A DNA stretch of 64,000 nt from Echinicola sp. 20G (GTDB taxonomy: Bacteria; Bacteroidota; Bacteroidia; Cytophagales; Cyclobacteriaceae), in NCBI RefSeq assembly GCF_015533855.1, contig NZ_AP024154.1, positions 1,925,001 to 1,989,000 of the forward strand, given 5' to 3'. This document shows, one piece after another, positions 16 to 21,200 of this stretch. The position numbers were made by a program, and so were the translations under genes. The notes under the pieces are model-generated. The model was not told the DNA's origin. It saw nothing but the letters and a program-made list of their open reading frames with translations, and searched no databases. The stretch's first letter is position 1; each line of letters opens with the position of its first letter.

Positions 16-1602
16 ATGGAAATACATGACATACTTCAGCCACTGGATTTTGCAGTAGTCGGCCTTTATCTAGTTACCCTAATTGGCATAGGTTATTGGG
101 TGAGTTTTAAGAAAAAAAGAGATGCCAATGAAAATCTGTTTTTGGCAGGCAATTCCCTGAGATGGCCCAGTATAGGCTTTACCATGTGGGGCACCAATGT
201 CGGCCCATCCATGTTGATTGCTTCCGCCAGTATTGGCTATACGACAGGAGTGGTAGCAGGTAATTTTGCTTGGTATGCTTTCATCTTTGTTTTTTTATTG
301 GCAGTAGTTTTTGCGCCAAGGTATTTGGGGACTCGGGTACAAACGCTTCCTGAATTTATGGGAAAACGCTTTGGACCTTCTACACAGAACATATTGGCAT
401 GGTACACCATCATCACTGTGCTAATCAGTTGGCTTTCCCTGACCTTATTTGCAGGAGGAATTTTGATCCGCCAGATTTTGAATTTGCCACTGTGGCTTTC
501 GGTAGTGATTCTGATTCTTATCGCTGCTTTTTTTACCATTGCAGGAGGACTTAAGGCCATTGCCTATACCAATGTTTTTCAAATGCTGCTATTAATTCTG
601 GTGTCGTTGGTGCTTACACTCACTGGTTTGTATAAAGTCGGAGGAGTTGGAGAGCTTGTTGCGAATACACCAGGGGAATATTGGAACCTGTTGTTGCCAG
701 CGGATGACCCCAATTATCCTTGGGTGGCTATTGCGCTGGGCTATCCGGTGATGGGAGTTTGGTTTTGGTGCACGGATCAGTCCATGGTACAATCTGTTTT
801 GGGCGCCAAAAACCTAAAAGAAGGTCAGCTGGGAGCTAATTTTACTGGTTGGTTAAAGATCTTGGATGTAGCCTTGTTTATTATCCCTGGCATCATTTGT
901 TATGTGTTGTTTCCCGATTTGGACAACCCGGATGAGGCGTACATGACCATGGTGACCAAACTGCTTCCTGTTGGAATGACCGGGCTTGTCATGGCGGTAT
1001 TGATCGCGGCATTGGTGAGTACAATTGATTCAGCATTGAATGCGCTGAGTACTGTTTTTACCATGGACATTTATGTGAAGAGGTATAGACCCGCCGCTAG
1101 CCAAAAGCAGATTGTCAAAGTTGGCCGGGTGGTGACTGTCTTGGGGGCCGTGATCGCCATTTTTCTGACTTTGGCGATTGACAGCATTAAGGGGCTGAAC
1201 CTCTTTGATGTTTTTCAGTCCATTTTGGGCTTTATCGCGCCACCAATGTCGGTGGTGTTTCTTTTTGGCGTGCTTTGGAGAAAAACAACCACCAAGGCTG
1301 CCAATACTGTATTGCTTTTTGGAACCATTTTGAGCTTAAGTATTGGTGTGCTGTATCTTTGGATATTCCCCAATGCCGAATATGTCTTTTGGCCTCATTT
1401 CCTACTGCTTTCATTTTATATTTTCGTGTTTTTGGCCGTGTTGATCATGGTGGTTTCCTATATCGACCGAAATAGAAAAGATCTATATGTAAACACTTTG
1501 GATTATGGAGCCATCCCAAAATTGACGAACCAGGTCAAATGGCTGTGGATTGCCTTGATCATCGTGATGGTAGGGATGTATTTGTTGTTTAATGGGCATT
1601 AG
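16..1602 (+). CDS. Sodium:solute symporter (SSS family), probable sugar transporter
   Basis: A 528-residue, very hydrophobic protein with about 13-14 membrane segments and no signal peptide, the usual size for the SSS family (SGLT/PutP type). The N-terminal part has the family-like run of a first helix followed by a charged loop and a GN-S-R-WPS-GFTMWGTNVGPS segment, typical of sugar-transporting members. It probably imports a sugar across the inner membrane using the sodium gradient. It is the first gene seen of a + strand glycosidase cluster, so the substrate is likely a sugar released by the enzymes downstream (inference). The start at 16 fits the first membrane helix; anything further upstream lies outside the window. 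Confidence 0.9.
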   Translation: MEIHDILQPLDFAVVGLYLVTLIGIGYWVSFKKKRDANENLFLAGNSLRWPSIGFTMWGTNVGPSMLIASASIGYTTGVVAGNFAWYAFIFVFLLAVVFAPRYLGTRVQTLPEFMGKRFGPSTQNILAWYTIITVLISWLSLTLFAGGILIRQILNLPLWLSVVILILIAAFFTIAGGLKAIAYTNVFQMLLLILVSLVLTLTGLYKVGGVGELVANTPGEYWNLLLPADDPNYPWVAIALGYPVMGVWFWCTDQSMVQSVLGAKNLKEGQLGANFTGWLKILDVALFIIPGIICYVLFPDLDNPDEAYMTMVTKLLPVGMTGLVMAVLIAALVSTIDSALNALSTVFTMDIYVKRYRPAASQKQIVKVGRVVTVLGAVIAIFLTLAIDSIKGLNLFDVFQSILGFIAPPMSVVFLFGVLWRKTTTKAANTVLLFGTILSLSIGVLYLWIFPNAEYVFWPHFLLLSFYIFVFLAVLIMVVSYIDRNRKDLYVNTLDYGAIPKLTNQVKWLWIALIIVMVGMYLLFNGH

Positions 1603-1863: not shown

Positions 1864-4053
1864 ATGGAAACCCGAAAATATACTCTTCTCCTATTATTTA
1901 TTATGCTGTGTTTTGCCCCATTTAAGACGCAGGCACAGGAATCAGACGCTCAAGCTACGTGGATATGGTATCCTGGAGATTATGAAATCTGGTTAAGCAA
2001 TAAAATGCAAGCCAGAAGGACAGAGCGGGGCGCTTTTTTGCCACCTCTTTGGCGGTATTACAGTCCTTATGCTCTGGTGACTTTTAGGAAAGAGTTTACA
2101 CTTCCTGCCAAAGATGAAATATCCATTGCTACCGAGGGACAATTTAAACTTCAGATCGATGGAATGCAGCAACATGGATCATCCCGAAAGATTAGCATTC
2201 CCGCCGGAAAGCACACAGTCGTTATCAAAGTCTATAACCAAGAACGTGTACCGGCGGTATTTATCCAAGGAGATTACTTGGTAACCGATGAGAGTTGGGA
2301 GGTGACCTATGAGGACAAGGAGTGGATAGACGAAACCGGCAAGGCTTCTGACCAATCTGGTACCAACTGGGAAGCAGTAGGGACCTGGGATTTTAATTCT
2401 GCTGATAATTTGCCTTCGGAATTTCAACTGTCCACCACCCCTCAATTTGCAAAAGCTGTAATGTCAGCAGGCAATGGAGAACTAATTGATTTTGGTAAGG
2501 AGACTTTTGGATATATCCAGTTCCACGGTTTGGAAGGAGAGGGGAATGTCAATGTCTATTACGGTGAATCTGAGGAAGAGGCCATGGACAGCACTTACTG
2601 TGAGACTTTAGATTACCTTCACTTTGACGGTAGCCAAGAGGAGGAGTACACGGTTAAAAACTCCAAGGCTTTCCGCTACGTACAGGTACAGCATGATCCT
2701 GAAGTCAGCTACGATTCCATTTCGATGCTGTATGAATATTTGCCTGTTGAATACCGCGGCGAATGGAATTCCTCCGATGAGCTGCTGAACGAAATTTGGG
2801 ATGTTTCCGCTTACACCATGCACCTGAATACCCGAGAGTTTTTCTTGGATGGAATCAAGCGGGATCGCTGGATCTGGTCAGGGGATGCCTACCAAAGTTA
2901 CCTGATGAACTATTATCTTTTCTTTGACAATGCCTCCGTGCGCAGGACATTGTTGGCCTTAAGAGGTAAGGAACCAGTGTCCAGTCACATGAATACGATT
3001 ATGGATTATTCTTTTTATTGGTTTGTGGGGATTTATGATTATTACCTGTACTCGGGTGATGAGGAATTTATCAAGAACTTTTATCCCCGGATGGTAAGCA
3101 TGATGGATTTTTGTTTGGAAAGAAGAAATGAAAATGGCATGATGGAAGGATTGCCGGGTGATTGGATTTTTATTGATTGGGCAGATGGGTTGAGCAAGCA
3201 GGGTGAAGTAAGTTTTGAGCAGATGCTGCTGGCCAGAAGCTTGGAGGCGATGGCAGTAAGCGCCGAAATAGCAGGGGATCAAGAAGGGCATCAAAAATAC
3301 CAAAAGCTGTCCGATGAGATGAAGAAAAAGCTGTTTGAGGTGTTTTGGTCAAAGGATCACAAAGCTATAATGCATCAGCGTGTCGATGGTAAAGTACTCG
3401 ACAATGTCACCCGTTATGCCAATATGTTTGGGATATTCTTTGATTACTTCTCTGAGGATCAAAAAGAAGCGGTCAAACAATCTGTGTTGCTAAACGATAA
3501 TGTCCAGAAAATCACCACACCTTATATGCGCTTCTATGAACTGGAAGCCCTCTGTGCAATGGGAGAGCAAGAATTTGTACTTGATGAAATTCGTGATTAT
3601 TGGGGAGGAATGCTGGATTTGGGAGCCACGTCTTTCTGGGAAAAGTATGATCCGAATGAGTCTGGAAACGAACATTTGTCCATGTATGGACGGCCTTATG
3701 GTAAGAGCCTTTGCCACGCTTGGGGAGCTAGCCCAATTTACCTTTTTGGCAAATATTACTTGGGTGTAAAACCCCTTTCTGCAGGATATAAAAGCTACGA
3801 AATACGTCCAAAGCTAGGAGGGCTGGAATGGATGGAAGGAAAAGTGCCGACGCCAAATGGAGCTATTTCCGTGTATTGCTCCACTAATGAAATCAAGGTT
3901 TCTTCTGATGAGGGAGAGGGTATCTTGCTATTTAAAAGTAAGTCTAAGCCAAAGACAAATCTAGGAGAAGTCAAAACTTTGGGCGATGGTGAATATAAGC
4001 TTTTCCTAGAGGCTGGGAAGGAATATTTGTTGAAATACAAGGCAGTGGAGTAG
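1864..4053 (+). CDS. Alpha-L-rhamnosidase-like glycoside hydrolase (GH78 type), secreted
   Basis: A 729-residue protein with a signal peptide (residues 1-24, ending TQAQ). N-terminal beta-sandwich modules containing a WIWYPGD motif are followed from about residue 300 by an (alpha/alpha)6-barrel. The barrel entry DGIKRDRWIWSGDA is the degenerate GH78 form of the usual D-R-x-x-GD-A block that carries a catalytic acid; FWEKYDPNESG near residue 590 is the likely second catalytic region. A short C-terminal beta domain closes the protein. GH78 enzymes release terminal alpha-L-rhamnose from pectin side chains or glycosides. Followed 89 nt later by a GH2 gene. Family call is good; exact substrate is unknown. 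Confidence 0.82.
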   Translation: METRKYTLLLLFIMLCFAPFKTQAQESDAQATWIWYPGDYEIWLSNKMQARRTERGAFLPPLWRYYSPYALVTFRKEFTLPAKDEISIATEGQFKLQIDGMQQHGSSRKISIPAGKHTVVIKVYNQERVPAVFIQGDYLVTDESWEVTYEDKEWIDETGKASDQSGTNWEAVGTWDFNSADNLPSEFQLSTTPQFAKAVMSAGNGELIDFGKETFGYIQFHGLEGEGNVNVYYGESEEEAMDSTYCETLDYLHFDGSQEEEYTVKNSKAFRYVQVQHDPEVSYDSISMLYEYLPVEYRGEWNSSDELLNEIWDVSAYTMHLNTREFFLDGIKRDRWIWSGDAYQSYLMNYYLFFDNASVRRTLLALRGKEPVSSHMNTIMDYSFYWFVGIYDYYLYSGDEEFIKNFYPRMVSMMDFCLERRNENGMMEGLPGDWIFIDWADGLSKQGEVSFEQMLLARSLEAMAVSAEIAGDQEGHQKYQKLSDEMKKKLFEVFWSKDHKAIMHQRVDGKVLDNVTRYANMFGIFFDYFSEDQKEAVKQSVLLNDNVQKITTPYMRFYELEALCAMGEQEFVLDEIRDYWGGMLDLGATSFWEKYDPNESGNEHLSMYGRPYGKSLCHAWGASPIYLFGKYYLGVKPLSAGYKSYEIRPKLGGLEWMEGKVPTPNGAISVYCSTNEIKVSSDEGEGILLFKSKSKPKTNLGEVKTLGDGEYKLFLEAGKEYLLKYKAVE

Positions 4054-4142: not shown

Positions 4143-6995
4143 ATGACCAGATCAATACGAATCCATAAATTTTTTTTAGGACTTGCAGCTGTTTTTGCAG
4201 TGTCGGGGTTGAAAGCCCAAGAAACGGAAATCCAGTACCTGTCCGGTAAGGGTTATCAAGATACCAAGGAGTGGGAATTCAAAATTTCCGGAGGCCGAAA
4301 TAGCGAGGAGTGGAGCACCATCAGTGTGCCTTCTGTGTGGGAACAAGAAGGATTTGGGAAGTACCAATACGGCATTAAATTTTACGGAAAGCCTTTTCCT
4401 GAAGGGATAGCGGATGAAGTGGGTGAGTACAAATATACCTTTGATGTGCCCAAGGATTGGGAGAACAAGTTGGTAAGAATTGTTTTTGATGGATCCATGA
4501 CCGATACAGAAGTAAGGGTCAATGGTCGCTCGGCAGGTGATAGGCATCAAGGAGCATTTTACCGTTTTAAATACGATATCACTGATCTGCTAAAATATGG
4601 AAAGCAAAATCTCCTGGAAGTGACAGTCAGCAAGGAATCTTCCAATGCCAGTGTCAACTTAGCGGAAAGAAGGGCCGATTATTGGAATTTCGGAGGGATC
4701 TTCCGACCAGTGTTTTTGGAAGCTTTTCCCGCAAAATTCATTGACCGTACTGCCATTGATGCGCAAGCCAATGGACAGTTCAGGGCAGAAGTTTTTTTGG
4801 GGCATGCGAGTTCACAAGATATGAAGGTGGTGGCCAAAGTGATCGATAAGGGAGGAAAGCCTGTGGGGAAGCCAATAGAGCAATCCATCACCAAGGGAGG
4901 AGACAAGGTGATTTTGGAAAGCACCTTTCAGGGAGTTGACCTTTGGACAGCGGAAACGCCAAACCTTTATCACATACAGTTTTCCCTTTATGATGGAGAT
5001 AAACTGGTACATCAGATTGATGATCGTTTTGGTTTTCGCTCTATCGAGCTAAAGGCCAGTGATGGTATTTACATTAATGGCCAGCGGGTGCTGATGAAGG
5101 GGGTAAACAAACACAGCTTCTGGCCTGAATCCGGTAGGACGCTGAACAAAGAATTGAACTATGCAGATGCCAAGCTCATCAAGGAGATGAACATGAACGC
5201 CGTACGGCTTTCGCATTACCCATCCGACCCAGAGTTTTTGGATGCTTGTGATGAACTGGGACTATATGTGCTCCATGAGCTGGGAGGCTGGCACGGCCAT
5301 TATGATGAAGCCATCGGTATAAAGCTGGTGGAGGAGTTGGTGACAAGGGATGTGAACCACCCCAGCGTCATCTTCTGGGACAATGGCAATGAGGGTGGTT
5401 GGAACACAGAACTTGATGATGAATTTGCGAAGTGGGATCCCCAGAACCGACCCGTGCTTCATCCGCAGCAATTGCTGAGTGGCGTAGAGACGATGCACTA
5501 TCGCTCCTATGGGGAGACAGAAGAATATTTTAGGGGAGACTATATCTTTATGCCCACGGAGTTTTTACATGGGCTGTATGACGGTGGCCATGGCGCTGGC
5601 CTATTTGACTATTGGGAAATGATGCGCCAACATCCCCGAAGTGGTGGGGGCTTCCTTTGGGTATTTGCCGATGAGGGCATCGCCCGAACTGATCAGGATG
5701 GCCGAATAGATAATCAGGGAAACTATGGAGCGGATGGTATCGTGGGACCTCACCATGAAAAAGAAGGAAGTTTCTTTACGATCAAGGAAGTTTGGTCTCC
5801 GGTGATGGTCATGCATGAGGATCAGTTGGCGAGTGATTTTGATGGTGTTTTTAAAGTAGAAAATAGGTATGATTTTACCAACCTGAAAGCCTGTACTTTC
5901 GAATGGTCTCTGGCGGAATTTTATGATCCGCAAGTAGGCCAAAGTGGCCATAAGGTCATTCAATCAGGTGAACTAAATGGCCCAGATGTGGCTCCACATG
6001 GTGAGGGCAAAATTACAATTTCCCTACCATCCAATTGGAAGGAAGCAGATGTCCTGTACTTGACGGCCAAGAATCCAGAAGGTGAAGCATTGTGGACCTG
6101 GCATTTCACTTGGGGGCAGTCAAAGCAGTATCTACAGGCAGGTGCTGGAACAGTCGAATTGGAAGAGAATGAAGTAAGCTATGTGGTTTCTTCGGAAGAT
6201 TTACAAGTGACTTTCAGTAAGGAAAACGGACAAATTTCCACTATCAAGGAAGGAGGAAAGGATATTACTTTTACTGGTGGACCACGCTTTGTGGCTGCCA
6301 GAAGAGGCGATAGGACATTGGATGGGACGGTAGACCCTGAATTTGAAAAGGGGATGGATAGGATTTACAAGGAATTGGATTTGGAGCAGGAATTAAGGAT
6401 GATCAATGCAGAGAAGAAAGACGGAAATGTGATAGTGAAAGCAAGTTATTTTGGTCCTTTGGAAGAGGTAGTTTGGACCATTCAGCCAGGAGGATTGTTA
6501 CAACTGGATTATACCTATGCTTATAGTGGAGTGGTGGAACTCATGGGGGTAAGTTTTGACTACCCTGAAGAAAAAGTAAAGGGCATCCGTTGGCTGGGAG
6601 AAGGTCCTTACCGCTCTTGGCAAAACCGAATTCACGGTACCACCTTGGATATCTGGGGAAACGATTACAATGATCCTATTCCCGGAGAATCCTTCACCTA
6701 TCCAGAGTTCAAAGGCTATTTTCATGATTGGCATTGGGCGGAATTTGAGACTGAGGAAGGAAAAATCTACATGGCCAATGACCAGCAGGATAATTACCTG
6801 GGTGTTTACACACCTAGGGACGGCAGAGACGCCCTGTTGTACACCTTGCCCCAAACAGGAATTGCAGTCTTTGACGTGATTCCTGGGGTGAGAAACAAGG
6901 TAAATGCTACCGATTTGGTAGGTCCTTCTTCCCAACCCAAGCATGTAAGCGGCTCGAAATCCAGAAGGGTTTATTTTAAATTTAAAGCAAATTAA
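4143..6995 (+). CDS. GH2 family glycoside hydrolase (beta-galactosidase-like)
   Basis: A 950-residue secreted enzyme with a signal peptide ending near LKAQ. Order: GH2 sugar-binding sandwich (SVPSVWEQEGFG), immunoglobulin-like domain, TIM barrel (from about 300), then a C-terminal region resembling the small-chain domain of LacZ (WLGEGPYRSWQNR). The motif WDNGNEGGW supplies the probable acid/base E417, and PTEFLHG the probable nucleophile E473. Known GH2 activities include beta-galactosidase, beta-glucuronidase and beta-mannosidase; the sequence does not decide among them. It lies 89 nt after the GH78-like gene and probably shares a transcript with it. Confidence 0.85.
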   Translation: MTRSIRIHKFFLGLAAVFAVSGLKAQETEIQYLSGKGYQDTKEWEFKISGGRNSEEWSTISVPSVWEQEGFGKYQYGIKFYGKPFPEGIADEVGEYKYTFDVPKDWENKLVRIVFDGSMTDTEVRVNGRSAGDRHQGAFYRFKYDITDLLKYGKQNLLEVTVSKESSNASVNLAERRADYWNFGGIFRPVFLEAFPAKFIDRTAIDAQANGQFRAEVFLGHASSQDMKVVAKVIDKGGKPVGKPIEQSITKGGDKVILESTFQGVDLWTAETPNLYHIQFSLYDGDKLVHQIDDRFGFRSIELKASDGIYINGQRVLMKGVNKHSFWPESGRTLNKELNYADAKLIKEMNMNAVRLSHYPSDPEFLDACDELGLYVLHELGGWHGHYDEAIGIKLVEELVTRDVNHPSVIFWDNGNEGGWNTELDDEFAKWDPQNRPVLHPQQLLSGVETMHYRSYGETEEYFRGDYIFMPTEFLHGLYDGGHGAGLFDYWEMMRQHPRSGGGFLWVFADEGIARTDQDGRIDNQGNYGADGIVGPHHEKEGSFFTIKEVWSPVMVMHEDQLASDFDGVFKVENRYDFTNLKACTFEWSLAEFYDPQVGQSGHKVIQSGELNGPDVAPHGEGKITISLPSNWKEADVLYLTAKNPEGEALWTWHFTWGQSKQYLQAGAGTVELEENEVSYVVSSEDLQVTFSKENGQISTIKEGGKDITFTGGPRFVAARRGDRTLDGTVDPEFEKGMDRIYKELDLEQELRMINAEKKDGNVIVKASYFGPLEEVVWTIQPGGLLQLDYTYAYSGVVELMGVSFDYPEEKVKGIRWLGEGPYRSWQNRIHGTTLDIWGNDYNDPIPGESFTYPEFKGYFHDWHWAEFETEEGKIYMANDQQDNYLGVYTPRDGRDALLYTLPQTGIAVFDVIPGVRNKVNATDLVGPSSQPKHVSGSKSRRVYFKFKAN

Positions 6996-7103
6996 TTCAG
7001 TCTATGGCGGCAGGAAGAGGGAAAGATATCTTTTAGGAGATGACTGAGTGTAATGTTAAGTCATGAAAATACCCGAAATAATTTAATGACTTGATACTTT
7101 TTG

Positions 7104-7111
7104 TATTTTTG
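7104..7111 (+). promoter_or_regulatory. Candidate Bacteroidetes -7 element before the oxidoreductase
   Basis: TATTTTTG fits the Bacteroidetes primary-sigma -7 consensus TAnnTTTG, about 95 nt upstream of the oxidoreductase start. No convincing -33 element sits at the usual distance. Confidence 0.35.
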
Positions 7112-7206
7112 GCCTAAAGTAAAGAGTAGGGCAAGTTTGTATAATATGAGCTTGCCTCTGTCCTAAAATGGCATACTCGATAGGAAAATTTTTAAACGGT
7201 TAGGTA

Positions 7207-8241
7207 ATGAAAATTCAGATCATTGGAGCTGGGGGGATAGTGAGGGATGCCCATTTACCCGCTTACCAATTAGCAAATTTTGAGGTAGCAGGGATTTTTG
7301 ATGTAGATGAGGCCAAGGCCCATAAGCTAGCAGAAGAGTTTTCGATTCCCGATGTCTATTCATCGATCGCTAAAATGACAGCCACTGCCGATAAGGAAAC
7401 GGTTTTTGACGTAGCAGTACCGGGAAAAGTGGTGTTACAGGTTCTGAGCGAATTGCCCGATGAGGCAGTGGTTTTGATCCAAAAGCCCATGGGGGATGAC
7501 TTGGAATCTGCCCAAGCTATTTTAGAATTATGTCGAAAGAAAAAACTTAAAGCTGGCATTAATTTTCAAATGCGCTATGCGCCTTACATTCAAAAAGCGA
7601 GGGAGATCATTTCCTCAGGTCAACTCGGTGAGCTTTGTGATATTGAGATCAAGATTAATGTCTTTACTCCATGGCATTTGTGGGACTTTTTGTTTTCATC
7701 AGAGAGGGTGGAGATTCTTTATCACAGTATTCATTATGTGGATTTGGTCAGATCTTTTTTAGGCAATCCCAATAAAATATATGCCAAGACAGTCAAGCAT
7801 CCCAAAATGCAAAAGCTGGCATCTGTAAAAAGCAATATCATCATGGATTATGGTGAAATGCTCCAAGCCAATATATTGACCAATCATGCGCATGAATTTG
7901 GATTGAAACATCAGCAATCTTATGTCAAAATTGAAGGAACAAAAGGGGCGGTTATGGTGGAAATGGGGCTTTACAAAGATTACCCCAGGGGCACAGCCGA
8001 TAAATTTGAATATTTGATACTGGAAGAAGGGAAAAAGCCTGAATGGCAGGAGGTGAAGATTGATGGGACATGGTTTCCTCATGCGTTTATTGGCACTATG
8101 GCCGAGATGAAAAAAGCACTGGAAGATCCTTCTTATGTCCCTGATAACAGTGTGGAAGATTGTATTTACACCATGGCCTGTGTGGAAGCGGCTTATGCAT
8201 CCAGTGATACCGGAGGTGTCCAGCTAAAGGGCGATTTTTGA
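7207..8241 (+). CDS. Gfo/Idh/MocA-family NAD(P)-dependent oxidoreductase
   Basis: A 344-residue cytoplasmic protein. The N-terminal Rossmann fold shows IIGAGGIVRDAHLPAY (residues 5-20); the family catalytic signature is seen as IQKPMGDD with K93-P94; the C-terminal half is the typical open-sheet substrate domain. Members oxidise or reduce sugars, inositols and sugar lactones; the apiose dehydrogenase ApsD belongs to this family. It is followed by a RuBisCO-like protein and a sugar-acid kinase, suggesting it oxidises a pectin-derived sugar or sugar acid feeding them (inference). It sits 211 nt after the GH2 gene with a possible promoter of its own. Confidence 0.88.
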   Translation: MKIQIIGAGGIVRDAHLPAYQLANFEVAGIFDVDEAKAHKLAEEFSIPDVYSSIAKMTATADKETVFDVAVPGKVVLQVLSELPDEAVVLIQKPMGDDLESAQAILELCRKKKLKAGINFQMRYAPYIQKAREIISSGQLGELCDIEIKINVFTPWHLWDFLFSSERVEILYHSIHYVDLVRSFLGNPNKIYAKTVKHPKMQKLASVKSNIIMDYGEMLQANILTNHAHEFGLKHQQSYVKIEGTKGAVMVEMGLYKDYPRGTADKFEYLILEEGKKPEWQEVKIDGTWFPHAFIGTMAEMKKALEDPSYVPDNSVEDCIYTMACVEAAYASSDTGGVQLKGDF

Positions 8242-8380
8242 AGATTTCATTTCCCTGAAAGCTTTGCCCACTAATCCTGAGTCGACACGAATTTTTTGCT
8301 TCACTTTAATTTTCATAACAACTTGATTAGCTGTTTCTACAAGCAGGTAAGTTCAGGATGCTAAGGCCGTACAAGCTATA

Positions 8381-8388
8381 TACATTTG
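8381..8388 (+). promoter_or_regulatory. Candidate -7 promoter element for the RuBisCO-like gene
   Basis: TACATTTG matches TAnnTTTG exactly, 95 nt upstream of the preferred start codon at 8483. The -33 region is weak. A transcript starting here would carry the hairpin at 8414-8442 near its 5' end. Confidence 0.45.
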
Positions 8389-8413
8389 TTCATAGGGTTT
8401 TATTAGGTTTTTA

Positions 8414-8448
8414 GTAGGACGGGAGCCATACTCCTGTCTTACTTTTTT
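8414..8448 (+). terminator. Terminator-like hairpin in the leader of the RuBisCO-like gene
   Basis: GTAGGACGGGAG (8414-8425) pairs along 12 positions, two or three of them G-U, with CTCCTGTCTTAC (8431-8442), followed at once by six T. It could end read-through from the oxidoreductase gene. Because it lies between a -7-like element and the start codon it might also act as an attenuator. Confidence 0.6.
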
Positions 8449-8482
8449 CATGTGTGAGGCCTTTGTCCTGCCCTTAATACCT

Positions 8483-9730
8483 ATGGAAAGAATTACTGCA
8501 ACATATTATATAGAAACACCCTATGCGGTGGAGAAGGCAGCTCAAGTATTGGCCGGGGAGCAATCCTCCGGCACTTTTGTGGCTGTGCCGGGAGAAACGG
8601 AAGCCATAAAACAGCGCTTTGCTGCGCGTGTGGAAGAAATAGAAGAACTGGAGACAGTTCGTGAGCCAGCCATCCCTGGGGCCATTTCACCATCAGGCCA
8701 ATATCACCGAGCCATGGTCAAAGTGTCCTGGTCCATAGAGAATTTTGGCTATAACCTGCCCACCATGGTTTCTACCTTACAAGGAAACCTGTATGAAATC
8801 ACGCAATTTACCGGGCTGAAGTTAATGGATCTCGAAGTGCCGAGCTCTTTTGCAGCGCATTTCTCCGGACCCAACTTTGGCATTAAAGGCTGTAGGGAAT
8901 TGACAGGGGTGGCTATGGGGAGGCCTTTAATTGGTACGATTATTAAGCCCAGCATTGGCATGAGCCCGGAAGAAACAGCTGCTTTGGTCAAGACCTTGGC
9001 CAAAGCAGGAATAGATTTTATCAAGGATGATGAGCTGATGGGCTCTTCAGCTAATTCACCTTTTGACAAAAGGGTGGAGGCGATCATGAAGGTGATCAAT
9101 GAACATGCCGATAAAACAGGAAAAAAGGTCATGTACGCCTTTAATATATCCGATGAAATGGATGCAATGTACCGCCATTACGACAAGGTTTTGGTAAGTG
9201 GGGGGACATGTGCCATGATAAGCATCAATAGTGTTGGCCTGGCTGGGGTAAAAGCCATTTGTGATCGTGGTGAACTGGCCATTCATGCCCACAGAAATGG
9301 TTGGGGCATGCTGAACCGGCACCCTTTGTTGGGGATAGATTTTAGGGCCTACCAAAAAATTTGGAGGCTGGCAGGGGTTGACCAGCTACATGTCAATGGT
9401 ATCCAAAACAAGTTCTGGGAATCTGATGATTCAGTGGTCAATTCTATAGAGGCTTGTTTAAAACCCATGTTAGGAGGCTATGAGGTGATGCCAGTGGTCT
9501 CATCAGGCCAATGGGGCGGCCAAGCTCCTGAGACTTACAGAAGGACCAGTACTACGGATCTTTTATATATGGCCGGTGGAGGTATCATGGCTCATCCAGC
9601 AGGTCCTGCGGGAGGAGTAAGGGCATTGCAGCAAGCTTGGGAAGCCGCGGTGAATGGGCTGTCTGTCGAAGAGGCAGCGAAGAAATATGAGGAATTTGGG
9701 TTGTCGGTAGAAAAATTTGGTAAAAAGTAA
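8483..9730 (+). CDS. RuBisCO-like protein (form IV/RLP), probable sugar-acid phosphate decarboxylase or transcarboxylase/hydrolase
   Basis: 415 residues from ATG 8483 (MERITATYY); the longer reading from 8450 would begin directly after a terminator-like T tract and adds eleven residues unlike the family. Numbered from 8483, it keeps K155 (IIKPSIG), the carbamylated-lysine metal site K181/D183/E184 (FIKDDE), H268/H270/R271 (HAHRNGW), a loop-6 lysine K310 and phosphate-binding S340-S341-G and G365-G367. It should thus bind Mg2+ and a phosphorylated substrate. It differs from true RuBisCO in these surroundings and there is no small subunit. With the DUF1537 kinase overlapping its stop codon it resembles the OiaX/XacX group acting on 3-oxo-isoapionate 4-phosphate in D-apiose catabolism; which reaction it performs cannot be read from sequence. 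Confidence 0.88.
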   Translation: MERITATYYIETPYAVEKAAQVLAGEQSSGTFVAVPGETEAIKQRFAARVEEIEELETVREPAIPGAISPSGQYHRAMVKVSWSIENFGYNLPTMVSTLQGNLYEITQFTGLKLMDLEVPSSFAAHFSGPNFGIKGCRELTGVAMGRPLIGTIIKPSIGMSPEETAALVKTLAKAGIDFIKDDELMGSSANSPFDKRVEAIMKVINEHADKTGKKVMYAFNISDEMDAMYRHYDKVLVSGGTCAMISINSVGLAGVKAICDRGELAIHAHRNGWGMLNRHPLLGIDFRAYQKIWRLAGVDQLHVNGIQNKFWESDDSVVNSIEACLKPMLGGYEVMPVVSSGQWGGQAPETYRRTSTTDLLYMAGGGIMAHPAGPAGGVRALQQAWEAAVNGLSVEEAAKKYEEFGLSVEKFGKK

Positions 9731-11115
9731 TGTCTTCGAATAAAACCAATTTGCTGCTTGCTTACTATGGGGATGACTTTACAGGCTCCTCCGATGCACT
9801 GGATTTTCTGAGCAGGGCAGGTGTCAAGACGGTTTTGTTCATTACCCCTCCTTCAACCGAGCAACTAGAAAAATATAAAGGTATTCAGGCCATCGGAATT
9901 GCGGGGATGACCCGGTCCATGGGGCCAGGCGATATGGAAAATGAGCTGTCGGAAGCCTTTAGTGCGTTAAAAGTTGCTGGGGCTCCACAGGTGCATTATA
10001 AGGTGTGTTCTACATTTGACTCTTCCCCTAAGATCGGGAATATAGGAAAGGCAATGGAAGTGGGAGCGGCGGTTTTCGATACGGATTATATTTCTCTTTT
10101 GGTAGCCGCTCCTGCTCTAGGCCGTTATTGCACCTTTGGAAATCTATATGCAAGAATGGGCATAGGAAGCCAAGGTGCTATCCATCGCCTTGATCGGCAT
10201 CCCTCCATGAGCAAGCACCCTACCACTCCGGCTGATGAAAGTGATTTGCGCTTACACTTGGCCAAGCAAACCAAGCTAAAGGTTGGCTTGGTGGATATCT
10301 TGGAGTTGGGAGATGATAAAATCCAAAATGCACTCAAAAGAGAACTGGATAAAGCTTCTCAAGTCGTTCTATTCGATGCTTTGTACCCCGATCAGTTGAC
10401 CAATATAGGCAAGACGATTGATCTCGCTGGTAAAAGTAAAATCCACTTTTCGGTAGGTTCTTCAGGGGTGGAAATGGCTCTTGGAGCTTACTGGAAATCA
10501 AAAGGGAAATTGCTCAATGAGGTAAACTGGGCCGATCCAGGAAAAGCAAAACCCATGTTGGTCCTCTCAGGAAGTTGCTCGCCTGTTACTTCGGGCCAAA
10601 TTCAATATGCCCTTCAACATGGCTTTAGAGAAGTAGCTCTTGATCCTGTGAAGTTGATTGGTCAAGGAGAAGGGATTGGCCAGTATCAAAAAGAAGTGGT
10701 GGATAAGCTGAAGGAAGGCAAGCATGTAATTCTTCATACTGCCTTGGGAACCGATGATCCTCGGTTGGCAGAGACAAAAAACTTACTGAGTAATCAAGGT
10801 GTGGCTCAAGAGGATATTTCATCCAAAACCGCCGACTTCTTTGGGCGGGCTTTGGGCAGGATCGCCAGAAATGTTGCAGAAGAAGTACCCTTCAAACGCT
10901 TGATAATAGCTGGTGGAGATACCTCCAGCAAGGTAGCCCGGGCCTTGGGCATAGAGGCGGTGGAAATGATTGCCCCTTTACTACCAGGTGCACCGCTTTG
11001 CAAAGCTTTTGCCCAAGATTCCTCCATTGATGGAATGGAAGTGAATTTCAAGGGAGGCCAGGTGGGGGCTGAAGATTACTTTGTTAAAGTGATGGAAGGT
11101 AGTTTTGAAAGATGA
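9730..11115 (+). CDS. Four-carbon acid sugar kinase family protein (DUF1537; OiaK/OtnK-like)
   Basis: A 461-residue cytoplasmic kinase. The N-terminal substrate domain starts with YYGDDFTGSSDALD (about 12-25); the C-terminal nucleotide domain shows LSGSCSPVTSGQI, IIAGGDTSSKVARALG and KGGQVGAEDYF. These are the characteristic DUF1537 blocks. Members phosphorylate 3-oxo sugar acids such as 3-oxo-tetronates or 3-oxo-isoapionate. Its ATG shares one base with the stop codon of the RuBisCO-like gene (TAATG), so the two are translationally coupled and probably consecutive steps: the kinase makes the phosphate that the RuBisCO-like enzyme uses. Confidence 0.88.
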   Translation: MSSNKTNLLLAYYGDDFTGSSDALDFLSRAGVKTVLFITPPSTEQLEKYKGIQAIGIAGMTRSMGPGDMENELSEAFSALKVAGAPQVHYKVCSTFDSSPKIGNIGKAMEVGAAVFDTDYISLLVAAPALGRYCTFGNLYARMGIGSQGAIHRLDRHPSMSKHPTTPADESDLRLHLAKQTKLKVGLVDILELGDDKIQNALKRELDKASQVVLFDALYPDQLTNIGKTIDLAGKSKIHFSVGSSGVEMALGAYWKSKGKLLNEVNWADPGKAKPMLVLSGSCSPVTSGQIQYALQHGFREVALDPVKLIGQGEGIGQYQKEVVDKLKEGKHVILHTALGTDDPRLAETKNLLSNQGVAQEDISSKTADFFGRALGRIARNVAEEVPFKRLIIAGGDTSSKVARALGIEAVEMIAPLLPGAPLCKAFAQDSSIDGMEVNFKGGQVGAEDYFVKVMEGSFER

Positions 11116-11134
11116 AGGATGACGAATTTTCTGC

Positions 11135-11220
11135 CGTCATTAGGAGGAGGCACTACGAAGCAATCTCGTCTTAAGATTAGAAGATTGCTTCACTTCACTA
11201 TCTTTCCATTCGTAATGACG
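11135..11220. repeat. REP-like palindromic intergenic repeat
   Basis: An 86-nt imperfect palindrome: CGTCATTA (11135-11142) with TAATGACG (11213-11220), and GAAGCAATCT (11157-11166) with AGATTGCTTC (11182-11191). It resembles the widespread bacterial CGTCATTGCGAGG...GAAGCAATC palindromes. It separates the kinase from the racemase-fold gene, where a strong stem could process or attenuate the operon message. Confidence 0.75.
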
Positions 11221-11260
11221 ATACCATTATATATTGAAGATTTTATCGAAATAACCAAAA

Positions 11261-11917
11261 ATGAAAACATTAGGATTGATTCATACCTCGGCCACCTTGG
11301 TGCCCATATTCCAGCAATTATGCGATGAGTATCTTGCTGATGTAAAGGTGTTTAATATCGTAGATGACAGCCTGATCAAGGACGTGATCAGCAAAGGAAA
11401 GTTGACTCCTCAAACGGCCAGAAGAGTGGTGGATTATGTGGGCTCAGCGGAACTTGCAGGAGCAGATCAAATTATGGTGACTTGTTCCTCCATTGGTGCG
11501 GCGGTGGAAGCAGCAGCTGAACTGAGTGAGGTGCCTGTCCTCCGAGTAGATCAGCCCATGGCAGATTTAGCCATTAAAACAGGAACGAAGATCGGTGTGG
11601 TGGCTACTTTGCCGACCACTTTGGAGCCAACAGCTGATTTGGTGAGAAGAAGGGCCAAGGTACTCGGGAAGGATATTTTGTTGACCTCTAAACTTTGTGA
11701 AGGCGCTTTTGAAGCTTTGATGGGAGGGCAACCTGAAACGCATGATGAAATGGTGGCCAAAGCCTTAAAGGAACTTGCTGAGGAAGTAGACGTAATTTTA
11801 CTTGCTCAGGCCTCCATGGCAAGGGTGGTGGATACCTTGGATGAATCGGACAAGAAAGTGCCGATTGTAGCCAGTCCACCGGAAGCGGTGAAGTATTTGG
11901 CGGAAATCTTAAAGTAG
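11261..11917 (+). CDS. Asp/Glu racemase-superfamily protein lacking the second catalytic cysteine
   Basis: A 218-residue cytoplasmic protein of the Asp/Glu/hydantoin racemase fold (two alpha/beta lobes). The first-lobe motif MVTCSSIG carries C75, one of the two usual catalytic cysteines. In the second lobe the equivalent segment reads LLAQASMAR (about 180-188) with alanine/serine where racemases have cysteine. Two-base racemisation therefore looks unlikely; other members of the superfamily with one cysteine are isomerases or decarboxylases such as arylmalonate decarboxylase. Lying between the sugar-acid kinase and a transporter, it may isomerise or decarboxylate an intermediate of that pathway (inference). 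Confidence 0.8.
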   Translation: MKTLGLIHTSATLVPIFQQLCDEYLADVKVFNIVDDSLIKDVISKGKLTPQTARRVVDYVGSAELAGADQIMVTCSSIGAAVEAAAELSEVPVLRVDQPMADLAIKTGTKIGVVATLPTTLEPTADLVRRRAKVLGKDILLTSKLCEGAFEALMGGQPETHDEMVAKALKELAEEVDVILLAQASMARVVDTLDESDKKVPIVASPPEAVKYLAEILK

Positions 11918-12010
11918 CTATATGGACTATAGAAACAAAAGTAAAGAGTAAAGACAAGATCCGTGTCGGTTTTCAATCCGTCGTGGGCCTTAGAAGGCTG
12001 ACTTTGGACG

Positions 12011-12051
12011 AATGACCGATAACAGATAACCATTACCCAATAACCAAGCCC
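12011..12051. repeat. Heptanucleotide array running into a start codon
   Basis: Units AATGACC, GATAACA, GATAACC, ATTACCC, AATAACC, AAGCCCA with a 7-nt period (consensus NATAACC); the last unit ends on the A of the transporter's ATG at 12052. A further short run (AAAGTAA, AGAGTAA, AGACAAG) lies about 70 nt upstream. Confidence 0.6.
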
Positions 12052-13377
12052 ATGAATCACTTTCGTAAACTTTTGTATAAATGCGCCTTAGCCTTGTTCT
12101 TGGTATCTGGTCTGGCCTTGATTATGGGATATGCTCAACTAGGTCAAGGCGCTGTGGTGGCTGCTTGTTTTGCTTTTGCGCTCGGGATGGGAGCTGTGGA
12201 TAAGCTGAAAGGCTATCAATATACCGCTTGGATCATTACTGCGGTGGTAGCAGGAATGGTTTATCCCAATGCTTTTTTGCAATGGGGAGAATTGGACTTG
12301 CGAAACAAGTGGTTGATTCTAATTGTGGTCCAAGCTGTGATGTTTGGGATGGGGATTCAAATGAGTTTAAGGGATTTTTCAAATTTAGGAAGTACTGGCA
12401 AAGGCGTTTTGGTGGGTTTGATAAGCCAATTTTCCATTATGCCCCTGATAGGTTTTTTGCTGACCAAGCTGTTTGACTTTGATCCGGAGATAGCAGCCGG
12501 AATTATCCTGATGGGGGCTTGTTCCAGTGGTTTGGCTTCCAATGTAATGGTTTACTTAGCCAAGGCCAATTTGGTACTATCGGTTACAGTAACGGCCATG
12601 GCAACCATGCTGGCTCCGTTGATGACTCCCTTTTGGATGAAGACGCTGGCCGGAACATTGATCGATATTGAATTTTTTGACATGATGATGAACATCATCA
12701 AGATTGTCTTGGTACCCATTGGAGCGGCATTACTGCATGATTACCTGAAATCAGCCCCAAGAAACCTCAAAATCAGGATTTATTATGGGGCTGCTCTCCT
12801 TGTGGTATATTTGGCATTTCTTCCTTTTGGTTTGTGGGATTATTTTACCCAAAGTCTTTCTTCATCAGCCGTACAATCTTTGGAGATTTTTAGCTTTTTT
12901 ATGGGGGCTATTGTTTTTGGGGTACTTTATCATATTTGCACTCATTGGATCACCCAACTGGACAAATGGATGCCTTATGTTTCCATGTTTGGGATCGTCT
13001 ACTTTACAACCGTCACCACTGCTGCCGGTCGGGATAATCTGTTGCAGGTTGGAGGGTTGTTATTTATGGCCTCTGTATTGCACAATGGACTAGGTTATTT
13101 TTTTGGATATTGGTTGAGCCGATTGCTGGGCTTGGATGTGCCTTCAGCAAGGGCGATGGCTCTGGAGGTGGGTTTGCAAAATGGCGGGATGGCATCCGGC
13201 TTGGCAGGTTCGATGGGGAAACTGGGCACAGTGGGCCTGGCTCCCGCAGTATTTAGCCCTTGGATGAATATCTCAGGATCTATCTTGGCCAATTATTGGC
13301 GAAAGAAATCTCTGAAAGAAGAGAAAATGGAGGCTGATAAAGTGCCTGAGAATTTGTCTGCAAATTACACGAATTAG
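12052..13377 (+). CDS. Bile acid:sodium symporter (BASS) family transporter
   Basis: A 441-residue membrane protein. After two extra N-terminal membrane segments (about 1-80) comes the 10-segment BASS core, with MGIQMSLRDF, the crossing-motif-like LMGACSSGLASNVMVYLAKAN and the second-half repeat ALEVGLQNGGMASGLAGSMG. Family members move bile acids, ketopantoate, pyruvate and other organic anions with sodium. As last gene of the RuBisCO-like module it plausibly imports a sugar acid or exports a product acid (inference). The protein is longer than the usual 300-330 residues owing to its N-terminal extension and a charged tail. Confidence 0.85.
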   Translation: MNHFRKLLYKCALALFLVSGLALIMGYAQLGQGAVVAACFAFALGMGAVDKLKGYQYTAWIITAVVAGMVYPNAFLQWGELDLRNKWLILIVVQAVMFGMGIQMSLRDFSNLGSTGKGVLVGLISQFSIMPLIGFLLTKLFDFDPEIAAGIILMGACSSGLASNVMVYLAKANLVLSVTVTAMATMLAPLMTPFWMKTLAGTLIDIEFFDMMMNIIKIVLVPIGAALLHDYLKSAPRNLKIRIYYGAALLVVYLAFLPFGLWDYFTQSLSSSAVQSLEIFSFFMGAIVFGVLYHICTHWITQLDKWMPYVSMFGIVYFTTVTTAAGRDNLLQVGGLLFMASVLHNGLGYFFGYWLSRLLGLDVPSARAMALEVGLQNGGMASGLAGSMGKLGTVGLAPAVFSPWMNISGSILANYWRKKSLKEEKMEADKVPENLSANYTN

Positions 13378-13550
13378 CTTTTTTTGAACCATTAAGGGAA
13401 TTAAAAAAGAGGGATTTTTTTATAGTCTTTCAAGTCTTTATGGTTCCTTAATTTTTCAATTCCATCAACCTTCAAATCGGGAACATGATAGCACAGGAAG
13501 GTAAAAATCAGGTGTTTTGTAATTTTAGTACATGAATAGAACAGTTGAAA

Positions 13551-17964
<4,414 letters not shown>

Positions 17965-18198: not shown

Positions 18199-18226
18199 GC
18201 CATCTAAAATCTTAAATCTAATGTCT
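18199..18226. repeat. Heptanucleotide array overlapping a start codon
   Basis: GCCATCT, AAAATCT, TAAATCT, AATGTCT with TCT every 7 nt; the fourth unit contains the ATG (18221) of the GH106-like gene. Confidence 0.6.
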
Positions 18227-21200
18227 GGAATAAAGACCCGAAATACCATTTTCTTTTTGTTATTAGCCTTCTTAATCGGGGCATGTAGCAGTCCAGAAAA
18301 GGAAGAAAAAGCTGAAGTCTTCGAACCGACATACGAGAGTTCGCAGCCTTGGGTGTATTGGTATTGGATGTATTCCACTTATTCCAAGGAAGGGATAACG
18401 GCAGATTTAGAAGCGATGAAAGAGGCGGGCATTGGTGGTGCATTTTTGATGTCCATCAAAGGTCCTGCTGATCCACCACTGACGGATGAGCCCACTTTGC
18501 AAGGCTCTAAGGAATGGTGGGAAATGGTACATCATGCGATGAAAGAGGCAGATAGACTTGGACTGAGATTGGCCATGCATGCCTGTGACGGTTTTGCAGT
18601 GGCGGGAGGTCCTTGGATCACCCCAGAAAACTCCATGCAAAAGGTGGTATGGGCTGATACCTTAGTAGCAGGTGGCCGGCAAGTCCATCTGAATATGCCT
18701 ATGCCCGATCACTATGAGGATTATTACAGGGAGTTAGCTGTTTATGCATTTCCTGTAAAAGAAGGTTTTGAGCTTGATGCAGCAGATATGCATCCGAAAG
18801 TTACCAGTAGCTTGGAGGAGAAGAATGTAGACTTTTTGCTTGATGATAAGTCAGACGAGCATTTCGGAACGAATGATGAAGCTTGGATCCAGTATGCTTT
18901 CGAAAAGCCATTTACCTGCCGTTCGATCCGTATTAAGACCAGTGGCAACAGTTATCAAGCCCATCGTTTGAAAATAGCGATCAGCGATGATGGGAAGGAC
19001 TTTGAGGAAGTGACCCGCTTGAAGCCACCAAGGCATGGTTGGCAGGATTGGGATTACGACTATACCCATAGTATCCCAGAAATTACCGCTAAGTATTTCC
19101 GCTTTATTTATGATAAAGAAGGCACTGAACCCGGGGCAGAAGATTTGGATGCCGCAAAATGGAAGCCCTCTCTAAAAGTAAAGACCATTGCCCTTTCTAC
19201 CAGTCCTAAAATCAGCCAGTATGAAGGCAAATCCGCAGCAGCTTGGCGGATGAGTGAACGGACTGATGCTGGAGTGATTCCTACTGAGGATTGTGTACCA
19301 ATGGAGCAAGTACTGGATATTTCAGGCCAGATGGGTGAAAATGGCCAACTGACTTGGCAAGCTCCACAGGGAAAATGGAAAATCATGCGATTTGGTTATA
19401 CCTCTACTGGCCATACCAATTACACCGGAGGTGGAGCTAAAGGTTTGGAAGTGGATAAGTTTAGTGCGGAAGCGGTCAAGTTTCAGTTTGACCAATGGTT
19501 TGGAGAGGCGATCAGAACTGCCGGGCCAGAATTGGCTGAGAGGGTGCTCAAAATATTTCATATTGACAGTTGGGAAGCTGGTAGCCAGAACTGGTCACCG
19601 GTATTCAGGGAAGAATTTCAAAAGCGCCGGGGTTATGATATCCTGCCTTATTTACCTGTGTTGGCGGGCGTGCCTGTGGAAAGTGCAGAGACTTCCGAAA
19701 GGGTTTTATATGATTTGAGAACGACGATTTCAGAATTGATCATGGATAATTTTTTTGGAACCTTGCAAGTGGAGGCGAAGAAGAATGGTATGCAGTTCAG
19801 TTCGGAAAATGTGGCTCCCACTATGGTGAGTGATGGGATGGAGCATTTCAAATACATCGATTTACCGGCCGGGGAATTTTGGCTGAACAGCCCCACCCAT
19901 GACAAACCCAATGACATGCGGGATGCCATATCAGGGGGGCATATTTATGGGAAGCAAATTATCCAAGCGGAAGCATTTACGCAGATCAGGATGGATTGGA
20001 ATGAATATCCTGGGATGCTCAAAACTTTGGGAGATCGAAATTATGCCATGGGCATCAATCGATTCTTCTATCATGTTTTTGTCCATAACCCTTGGCTTGA
20101 CCGAAAGCCAGGAATGACCTTGGATGTCATTGGTTTGTACTTTCAAAGAGACCAAACTTGGTGGAAGCCCGCCAAGGCTTGGGTGGACTATGCACAGCGT
20201 ACTCAGTACCAGTTGCAGAAGGGTAAGCCTGTGGTGGACGTCGCCGTGTTTTCAGGAGAAGATTTGCCAAGTCGGTCTGTGTTACCTGAGCGCTTAGTAG
20301 CCTTTTTACCGGGAATATTTGGAGAGGAGAGAGTTACAGGAGAAGAGGCTCGCTGGGCCAATGAGGATCAACCTACAAGGGTGATTCCAGCGGGAGTAAA
20401 GCATGCTGCCAACATGGCTGATGCTGAAGATTGGACTGACCCCTTGCGGGGGTATCATTATGATTCTTTCAATAAAGATGCCCTGCTGAACCTAGCAGAA
20501 GTGAAAGACGGCAAGGTGGTTTTGCCGGGGGGAGCTTCCTATGCCTTGCTGGTGTTTCCTGGGGTCAGAAAAATGAACCCCAATGCCAATTACATGTCTT
20601 TGGAGGTGGCCAAAAAAATATTTGATTTGGTCCAAGCTGGAGCCACAGTTGTAGTGGATGAAAAGCCACTGGGGACACTTGGTAAAATGGGAGATGACCA
20701 GGCATTGTCTGTTATCGTGGATGAAATATGGAAGGGAGAAGTTAGCGGGCATAGTACAGGTCAAGTCCAGTCTTGGAAAGTGGGTAAGGGAACTGTGGTA
20801 AAATTGCCTTATGTCCAAAGCACCTTTGGTGGTTTAGGTTTAGAACCAGATGTGGTGGCGATAGATAGTCATGACGGTCGGCGGAACCAAGACTTTGCCT
20901 TTGCCCATAGGAAAAGTCACCACGAGGATATTTATTTCATTTCCAATCAGCTTGAGGAGGAGCGAGAGTTCAATCTTTCCTTTAGAATTTCCGGCAAAAA
21001 GCCTGTATTTTATGATCCCGTTTGGGATAAGGAATATCCGGTGAATTCTTGGGAACTGGTGAAGGGAAGGACGCAGCTTCAGGTAAAGTTGCCCGCCAAT
21101 GGATCGCTGTTTGTGATCTTCAGAGAGGCCACTGCAGAAATGGGAAGTGAGCAAGGGGCCAATTGGTCTAATTTTCAACCTATCCAAGAAATCAAGGATA

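Follow-up and report, generated by a model that had tools for sequence, protein, structure and literature searches.

The window analysed here is a 64,000-nucleotide stretch of the single-contig, 5.79-Mb genome of Echinicola sp. 20G (assembly GCF_015533855.1, contig NZ_AP024154.1, positions 1,925,001 to 1,989,000). It contains a unit of four genes (8483-13377) that encode a RuBisCO-like protein (RLP), a DUF1537 acid-sugar kinase, a one-cysteine protein of the Asp/Glu-racemase fold, here called RacF, and a transporter of the BASS family. A sequence-only reading of this DNA had joined these genes to a preceding GFO/IDH/MocA oxidoreductase and had proposed a pectin-linked pathway for D-apiose, a sugar of rhamnogalacturonan II (RG-II), or for a related branched acid. 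All five genes and their flanks are open frames at the positions collected in Table 1, the run lies entirely on the + strand, and Pfam agrees with the assignments. In the nearest named relative among those compared, Echinicola arenosa, RacF is 92% and the RLP 96% identical. What might such a unit degrade? The best-supported candidate, judging from the genes that accompany it, is L-aceric acid (3-C-carboxy-5-deoxy-L-xylose), a rare acid sugar with a branched skeleton that occurs in side chain B of RG-II.

The counts given below come from three sets. A family sample of 196 genomes and a phylum sample of 395 genomes have some members in common. In addition, the RacF alignment was scanned against one genome per species (84,980 species), which gave 263 relatives; the loci of the best 80 were kept, and they are therefore biased towards the window's type. 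Some of these RacF loci belong to genomes that are also in the other samples (e.g., L080 and G146). Because locus genes were called by longest open frames, frameshifted genes look split.

The RLP, kinase, RacF and BASS genes form a conserved unit, and we regard its gene content and conservation as firm. Among the 80 RacF loci, the BASS gene is present in 79, the kinase gene in 75 and the RLP gene in 72; all four genes occur in 71, and in 59 they are consecutive on one strand, an arrangement not explained by chance. Eight loci lack a labelled RLP, although in L097, L125, L129 and L134 a type A RLP is found elsewhere or in fragments. In the family sample, 30 of the 196 genomes have an RLP match: eight of type A (at least 69% identity to the window RLP, own genome included, which has one match), 18 of type B (50-57%) and four at 27-28% identity. 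All seven other type A neighbourhoods contain the RLP, kinase, RacF and BASS genes and no protein with the PGDH_C domain (PF16896), which we take to be the ApnO-type oxidoisomerase. In contrast, RacF is missing from all 13 type B neighbourhoods examined (out of 18 genomes), and the PGDH_C protein is present in 11 of them; calling type B apiose-type is an assumption drawn from this neighbour. The module is conserved in relatives, where a lack of conservation would have told against the sequence-only reading, and that reading was right in taking the racemase-fold protein as the mark of a distinct variant. The oxidoreductase, by contrast, is a neighbour and not a core member, because its family recurs in only 5 of the 80 loci, so that its inclusion in the module has to be withdrawn.

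The link to aceric acid comes from a glycoside hydrolase (GH). Apart from the module itself, the family found most often in the RacF loci is a GH127 family, present in 35 of 80. In 18 loci its gene stands directly before the RLP gene on the same strand, and in 14 of these the two frames overlap or are separated by 64 bases or fewer; in one further locus it follows the BASS gene, and in another it is adjacent on the opposite strand. Both the window copy (838.3 bits, next structure 381.2) and the copy at L089 (838 bits, next 375) match PDB entry 5mqo, which we take to be BT1003, far above any other structure. In passages of the published accounts, BT1003 is the exception among characterised GH127 and GH146 enzymes in being an aceric acid hydrolase (PMC10850190), and it is named as such (PMC5698469). 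The window GH127 is accordingly of the BT1003 type, BT1003 being the nearest among GH127 proteins of known structure, and is a predicted aceric acid hydrolase. Its gene lies outside the interval that the sequence-only reading had marked out, yet it matters for the interpretation.

The association extends to whole genomes. In the phylum sample, a GH127 at or above 50% identity was found in 20 of 395 genomes, comprising all eight that have RacF and 12 of the 387 that do not. In the family sample, it was found in 13 of 196, comprising all eight with a type A RLP and five of the other 188; type B genomes have it in 2 of 18 cases. The 50% threshold was chosen after the scores were known, and the next identities were 43% in the family sample and 46% in the phylum sample. 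Three RacF matches in the phylum sample (E values of 2.5e-4 to 8.6e-4, 24-37% identity along a section of the protein) were discarded as fortuitous. GH127 genes with internal stops (G530, G596 and G603) or in two pieces (G584) were counted. From the 45 loci without a GH127 gene in their flanks, 20 genomes were tested, and 19 of them have one (at least 51% identity; in one genome in two pieces).

Table 1. Features of the window (positions are window coordinates; fractions are the RacF loci that contain a gene of the same family)
Feature	Position	Strand	Evidence or remark
SSS-family symporter, cluster context	16..1602	+	PF00474
GH78 alpha-L-rhamnosidase-like, context	1864..4053	+	PF17389, PF21209; 19/80
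GH2, context	4143..6995	+	Pfam and NCBIfam
GFO/IDH/MocA oxidoreductase, neighbour, non-core	7207..8241	+	5/80
RuBisCO-like protein (RLP), type A	8483..9730	+	Pfam RuBisCO_large 221.7 bits; in-frame upstream ATG at 8450
DUF1537 acid-sugar kinase, OiaK-like	9730..11115	+	Pfam SBD_N and NBD_C; 1-base overlap with RLP stop
RacF, one-cysteine Asp/Glu-racemase-fold protein	11261..11917	+	PF01177 (Asp_Glu_race) 85.6 bits
Cys75 codon of RacF	11483..11485	+	only invariant cysteine
Gln183 codon of RacF	11807..11809	+	place of the racemases' second catalytic cysteine
BASS (SBF) family transporter	12052..13377	+	PF01758 109.6 bits, cut-off 24.3
Weak GH130-like match, context	13545..14726	+	PF04041 below cut-off; 9/80
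GH2, beta-galactosidase-like, context	14716..17964	+	NCBIfam Bga2A 994.6 bits, cut-off 999
GH106 alpha-L-rhamnosidase, context	18221..21667	+	PF17132 595 bits; 29/80
SASA-type carbohydrate esterase, context	21711..23132	+	PF03629 59.2 bits; 21/80
GH127, predicted aceric-acid-hydrolase type	30391..32430	-	5mqo 838.3 bits, next structure 381.2
DUF5703 protein adjoining GH127	32484..34829	-	PF18961 402.7 bits; 32/80

The proposed kinship of the RLP and kinase to OiaX and OiaK is borne out in that these are the best NCBIfam models of the two proteins. The window RLP scores 522.8 bits with the OiaX model (NF042437) and the kinase 423.2 bits with the OiaK model (NF042436), each below the cut-off of 700. 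These shortfalls are weak evidence, because a kinase beside a true OiaX (480.1 bits) and two type B RLPs (439.2 and 456.4 bits) also miss the cut-offs; a Microvirga RLP scores 453.2 bits, a Microvirga kinase 575.4 bits and a Rhizobium OiaX 786.7 bits. The kinase has both domains of its family, SBD_N and NBD_C, above cut-off. In a quick tree of 48 rows, for which every third RLP of 400-450 residues was taken from the 80 loci, type A forms one clade (Shimodaira-Hasegawa-like approximate likelihood ratio test, SH-aLRT, 91) and type B a second one (98). A single OiaX row joins clade A as its sister with a value of 99, although its branch is long (2.07). The RuBisCO carbamate lysine, metal ligands and catalytic lysines (K155, K181, D183, E184, H270 and K310) are kept in 25 of 25 type A rows; the same residues recur in two distant members of the family, L027 and L029, save for K310 in L029. 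At W312, G345, R354 and T355, type A is the same as three of three OiaX proteins, whereas all 13 type B rows differ at every one of these positions. As a separate observation, the annotated OiaX proteins L063, L175 and L176 have lost the RuBisCO letters at window positions 26, 102, 303 and 340, and these positions are a possible marker separating decarboxylase from transcarboxylase kinds.

RacF belongs to the Asp/Glu racemase superfamily by its PF01177 score (cut-off 31 bits) and by its fold. Its predicted structure (predicted local distance difference test score, pLDDT, 95.6) has a glutamate racemase as the best Foldseek match (E value 1.9e-9), and among the 50 matches listed the template-modelling (TM) scores against racemases, by query length, are 0.64-0.77. 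Racemases of the superfamily are described, in a passage of PMC12661438, as using two cysteines for a 1,1-proton transfer. All 35 aligned RacF sequences have C75, and none has the second catalytic cysteine of such two-base enzymes, its place being taken by an equally invariant Q183 that pairs in the alignment with a cysteine of 1jfl. C146, the remaining cysteine, comes close to invariance without reaching it, so the one-cysteine description is true of the catalytic positions. A single base would suit a proton shift on one face better than racemisation.

How might these proteins act together on aceric acid? The aldose aceric acid bears a tertiary hydroxy acid at its C3. The intermediate on which OiaK acts, 3-oxo-isoapionate, is HOCH2-CO-C(OH)(COOH)-CH2OH, and the ketose of aceric acid is its methyl homologue. 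Because of this resemblance, one isomerase could replace the dehydrogenase, lactonase and oxidoisomerase of the oxidative apiose route; aceric acid needs none of the three, since its branch carboxyl is already present. We therefore propose the following route. The GH127 of the BT1003 type would free aceric acid from RG-II, and the BASS protein would import its anion. RacF would isomerise the aldose to HOCH2-CO-C(OH)(COOH)-CH(OH)-CH3, moving the carbonyl to C2, and the kinase, by analogy with OiaK, would phosphorylate the primary hydroxyl of this ketose. The RLP would then act on the phosphorylated beta-keto acid, most likely by a decarboxylation like that of OiaX, giving 5-deoxy-L-xylulose 1-phosphate if configuration is retained. 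A rhamnulose-1-phosphate-type aldolase could split this product into dihydroxyacetone phosphate and acetaldehyde. The 3R,4S centres, as in 5-deoxy-L-xylulose 1-phosphate, are handled by rhamnulose-1-phosphate aldolase, and the own genome contains two Aldolase_II (class II aldolase) matches of equal score in 708-residue frames (L173 at 1747694 and L174 at 5472467). Of these, the one given a score is a bifunctional rhamnulose-1-phosphate aldolase/dehydrogenase, at 956.6 bits against a cut-off of 567.75. On balance we consider it probable, by a modest measure, that the four genes constitute a self-contained route for L-aceric acid that includes decarboxylation by the RLP; aceric acid as such, predicted from the gene associations, earns higher confidence than that whole statement.

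A second kind of locus bears on the place of RacF in this scheme. In Draconibacterium aestuarii (L110), an uncultured Draconibacterium (L155) and a Bacteroidetes metagenome-assembled genome (L154), the RacF-BASS pair follows an aminotransferase gene, which itself follows transketolase genes. Both transketolase halves are present in L110 and L155, and one is visible in L154, where the contig end cuts the locus. A DUF5703 gene lies in between in L110 and L155, and the unit in L110 spans 4189-9767. None of the three genomes has an RLP match, and all three have GH127. Their transketolases form a group of their own, 80-89% identical among themselves and 33-42% identical to the apiose type. Acting on the proposed aceric-acid ketose, such a transketolase would yield 3-hydroxy-2-oxobutanoate and a two-carbon unit, and the aminotransferase could convert the former to threonine or, from an L-configured C4, to L-allo-threonine. 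Because one ketose intermediate would account for the RLP and transketolase versions alike, RacF is placed at the shared first step. We tentatively suggest, with somewhat less than an even degree of belief, that two aceric acid routes in Bacteroidota and their kin share an importer and RacF as a single-cysteine isomerase, the ketose then being either phosphorylated and then cleaved by the RLP or split by a dedicated transketolase.

Several points weigh against the proposal as a whole. To our knowledge, no aldose-ketose isomerase is known in the Asp/Glu racemase superfamily. None is named in the passages of PMC4996985 and PMC12661438 either. GH127 also occurs without RacF or without a type A RLP, in the 12 and five genomes mentioned above, and the window's own GH127 gene lies 17 kb from the module on the opposite strand. 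A control GH141 from upstream of the window, taken as another marker of RG-II, is likewise enriched (6 of 8 type A genomes versus 2 of 188 others in the family sample), so the GH127 association partly reflects RG-II in general; of the two, only GH127 is complete (8/8) in type A genomes. The genomes are related, and the co-occurrence counts are therefore not independent events; hypergeometric values computed for the loci take no account of this relatedness and carry no weight in the argument. One genome, that of L147, is an unexplained exception: it has RacF, but its best RLP match reaches only 52%, its BASS frame is split, and it has no BT1003-type GH127 (best 34%). Finally, all 25 type A and all 13 type B RLPs compared keep the letters that RuBisCO has at E26, N102, H303 and S340, which are replaced by D, G, Q and G in each of the three OiaX proteins; this argues against a reaction simply like that of OiaX and favours one closer to that of RuBisCO. 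As judged from its residues, the window RLP is near OiaX yet not an OiaX, and a reaction closer to that of RuBisCO is conceivable.

Among the alternatives, the best survivor holds that RacF performs some other one-base step, such as a decarboxylation, while an isomerase of the host makes the ketose. It draws on arylmalonate decarboxylase, which according to a passage of PMC4996985 likewise has a single catalytic cysteine, located at the other of the two sites. We judge it unlikely, if worth keeping in mind: RacF is kept where transketolase and aminotransferase replace the RLP and kinase, which marks a shared early step, and the commonest isomerase-like family among the annotated neighbours (a TIM barrel of the AP_endonuc_2 kind) is present in only 12 of 80 loci.

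Aceric acid could also be the substrate of an RLP that acts like OiaT, as a transcarboxylase/hydrolase, giving 3-phosphoglycerate and lactate with no need of an aldolase. Both this reaction and decarboxylation of 3-oxo-isoapionate 4-phosphate have been reported for such RLPs (in a passage of PMC6302742), and the four RuBisCO letters that type A keeps and the OiaX proteins have lost are as this alternative would predict. However, the OiaX-model score of the window RLP exceeds those of type B and of Microvirga, and W312, G345, R354 and T355 are common to type A and the three OiaX proteins that served as references. These similarities make an OiaT-like outcome rather unlikely.

That the module degrades D-apiose via isoapionate, with RacF and BASS standing in for the missing steps, was close to the original expectation. 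The best models are indeed OiaX and OiaK, RG-II contains apiose, and a family with an apiosidase-like domain (in a tested member) occurs in 9 of the 80 loci. Against this, PF16896 is found in 22 of the 196 family genomes, comprising 17 of 18 type B genomes, five others and none of the eight of type A; the absence of the published oxidoisomerase had been correctly noted, as the same search found no match in the own genome. The classical oxidative apiose route can be rejected for type A on this distribution. Of two candidates for the lactonase ApnL, taken from a type B locus and unverified as ApnL, one matches 2 of the 80 loci at 28% identity and the other none. Beside the module, L113 and L106 carry genes for a FucI-like protein, two transketolase halves and an FGGY kinase, and L089 carries all of these but the FGGY kinase. 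Compared with proteins of E. coli SE15, the halves share 41-49% identity with AptA and AptB, and the two FGGY kinases share 37-39% with AplK; AptA, AptB and AplK belong to the isomerase-kinase-transketolase route for apiose (apsI, aplK, aptA and aptB in a passage of PMC13001218, the names being assigned here via locus tags). The FucI-like protein may be the apiose isomerase. Because these three loci carry an apiose-transketolase-like set beside the module, the module would be redundant for apiose there. The restriction of GH127 to 2 of 18 type B genomes, against 8 of 8 of type A, points the same way. The RG-II pectin setting of the sequence-only reading therefore stands but its apiose substrate is not supported: the substrate is likely one other than apiose, and degradation of apiose by the module is improbable.

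A different branched acid, such as 2-carboxyarabinitol (hamamelonate), with the GFO enzyme as its oxidase, would after oxidation also present a beta-keto acid suited to the RLP, yet the rarity of the GFO family among the loci and the GH127 association that it leaves unexplained make this very improbable. Identification of the RLP as the methionine-salvage enolase MtnW, a member of the same superfamily whose placement would have spoken against the proposed kinship, can be practically dismissed, given a score of 144.6 bits against the cut-off of 513.6 (TIGR03332) and a context of pectin hydrolases.

The context of the module is one of pectin hydrolases. Besides the hydrolases of Table 1, the 40 kb 5' of the window contain alpha-L-arabinofuranosidase-, GH43-, GH2- and GH141-type genes and two rhamnogalacturonan-lyase-family genes. 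The DUF5703 protein is perhaps an uncharacterised RG-II glycoside hydrolase. The nearest NCBIfam models of the BASS transporter are PanS (195.4 bits) and bass (183.9 bits), both scores being below cut-off. In L033 (9936-16868) and L032, the module is adjoined by a unit encoding a MaoC hydratase, a solute-binding-like protein, two CoA-transferases, a fuconolactonase-like amidohydrolase, a RhaT-like permease and a GFO oxidoreductase, part of which is also visible near the module of L037 up to the end of the stretch examined. This unit would be a separate sugar-acid pathway, possibly one that depends on coenzyme A (CoA), and the window's GFO oxidoreductase may be a remnant of it.

Relatives of module proteins were also seen on plasmids. 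RacF homologues in six plasmid records are 38-47% identical, and their neighbours gave no clear function. The archaeal homologue of Haloprofundus halobius (L078; 38%) lies near a DUF1537 kinase, a class II aldolase and Gfo6, and maybe belongs to another acid-sugar pathway with a RacF fold. The Deinococcus homologue has a class II fructose-bisphosphate aldolase next door; three rhizobial homologues have a flavin adenine dinucleotide (FAD) oxidoreductase and a peptide-type ABC transporter nearby, one of them with otnK about 8 kb off; and the Caballeronia homologue has a sugar ABC transporter nearby. On a Croceibacterium plasmid (L168, 2175-6528), an RLP-kinase pair stands behind a GH127/GH146-like protein, with no annotated PGDH_C or racemase gene in the stretch examined. 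We rejected this locus as a second case, because the "arabinofuranosidase" before the RLP is not of the BT1003 type (5mqo 64.9 bits; best 5opj 123).

RG-II is described as conserved across plants in the abstract of PMC12168206, and a published passage presents aceric acid as a sugar that had not been reported before it was found in RG-II. No pathway for its breakdown was found in the literature searched by titles, abstract beginnings and passages, subscription papers being outside that scope, and its catabolism is undescribed in the passages of PMC6302742, PMC10850190, PMC12168206, PMC5698469, PMC12282258, PMC13001218, PMC4996985, PMC12661438, PMC6353982 and PMC9833052. If our proposal is correct, a gap in pectin breakdown would be filled, in that the releasing enzyme (BT1003) is already known and the catabolic route would be new. 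RuBisCO-like proteins would gain a new substrate and the Asp/Glu racemase fold a likely new reaction, RacF becoming the first aldose-ketose isomerase of its superfamily, and the aceric acid question would become one that four genes suffice to test.

How does the module compare with known systems? The oxidative D-apiose pathway with OiaK and OiaX, reportedly described by Carter et al. in 2018 and cited in PMC6302742, is alike in pairing a DUF1537 kinase with an adjacent RLP of the kind whose substrate is a branched 3-oxo acid. In contrast, the window genome is without PF16896, has RacF and BASS instead, and keeps the four RuBisCO letters lost in OiaX. The apiose transketolase route resembles what we found in L113, L106 and L089 in its transketolase halves, but in those loci the genes concerned make up a set of their own alongside the RLP module. 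The RG-II system of Bacteroides thetaiotaomicron has in common with the window, and with loci that carry the gene beside the module, a GH127 of the BT1003 type, whereas the passages of PMC5698469 and PMC10850190 treat the release of the sugar and contain nothing on intracellular aceric acid. Arylmalonate decarboxylase, finally, shares with RacF the fold and the single catalytic cysteine; in that enzyme, however, as given in a passage of PMC4996985, the second cysteine is kept (C188, with G74 at the other site), whereas RacF keeps the first (C75, with Q183 at the other), so that the two proteins are mirror images of each other.

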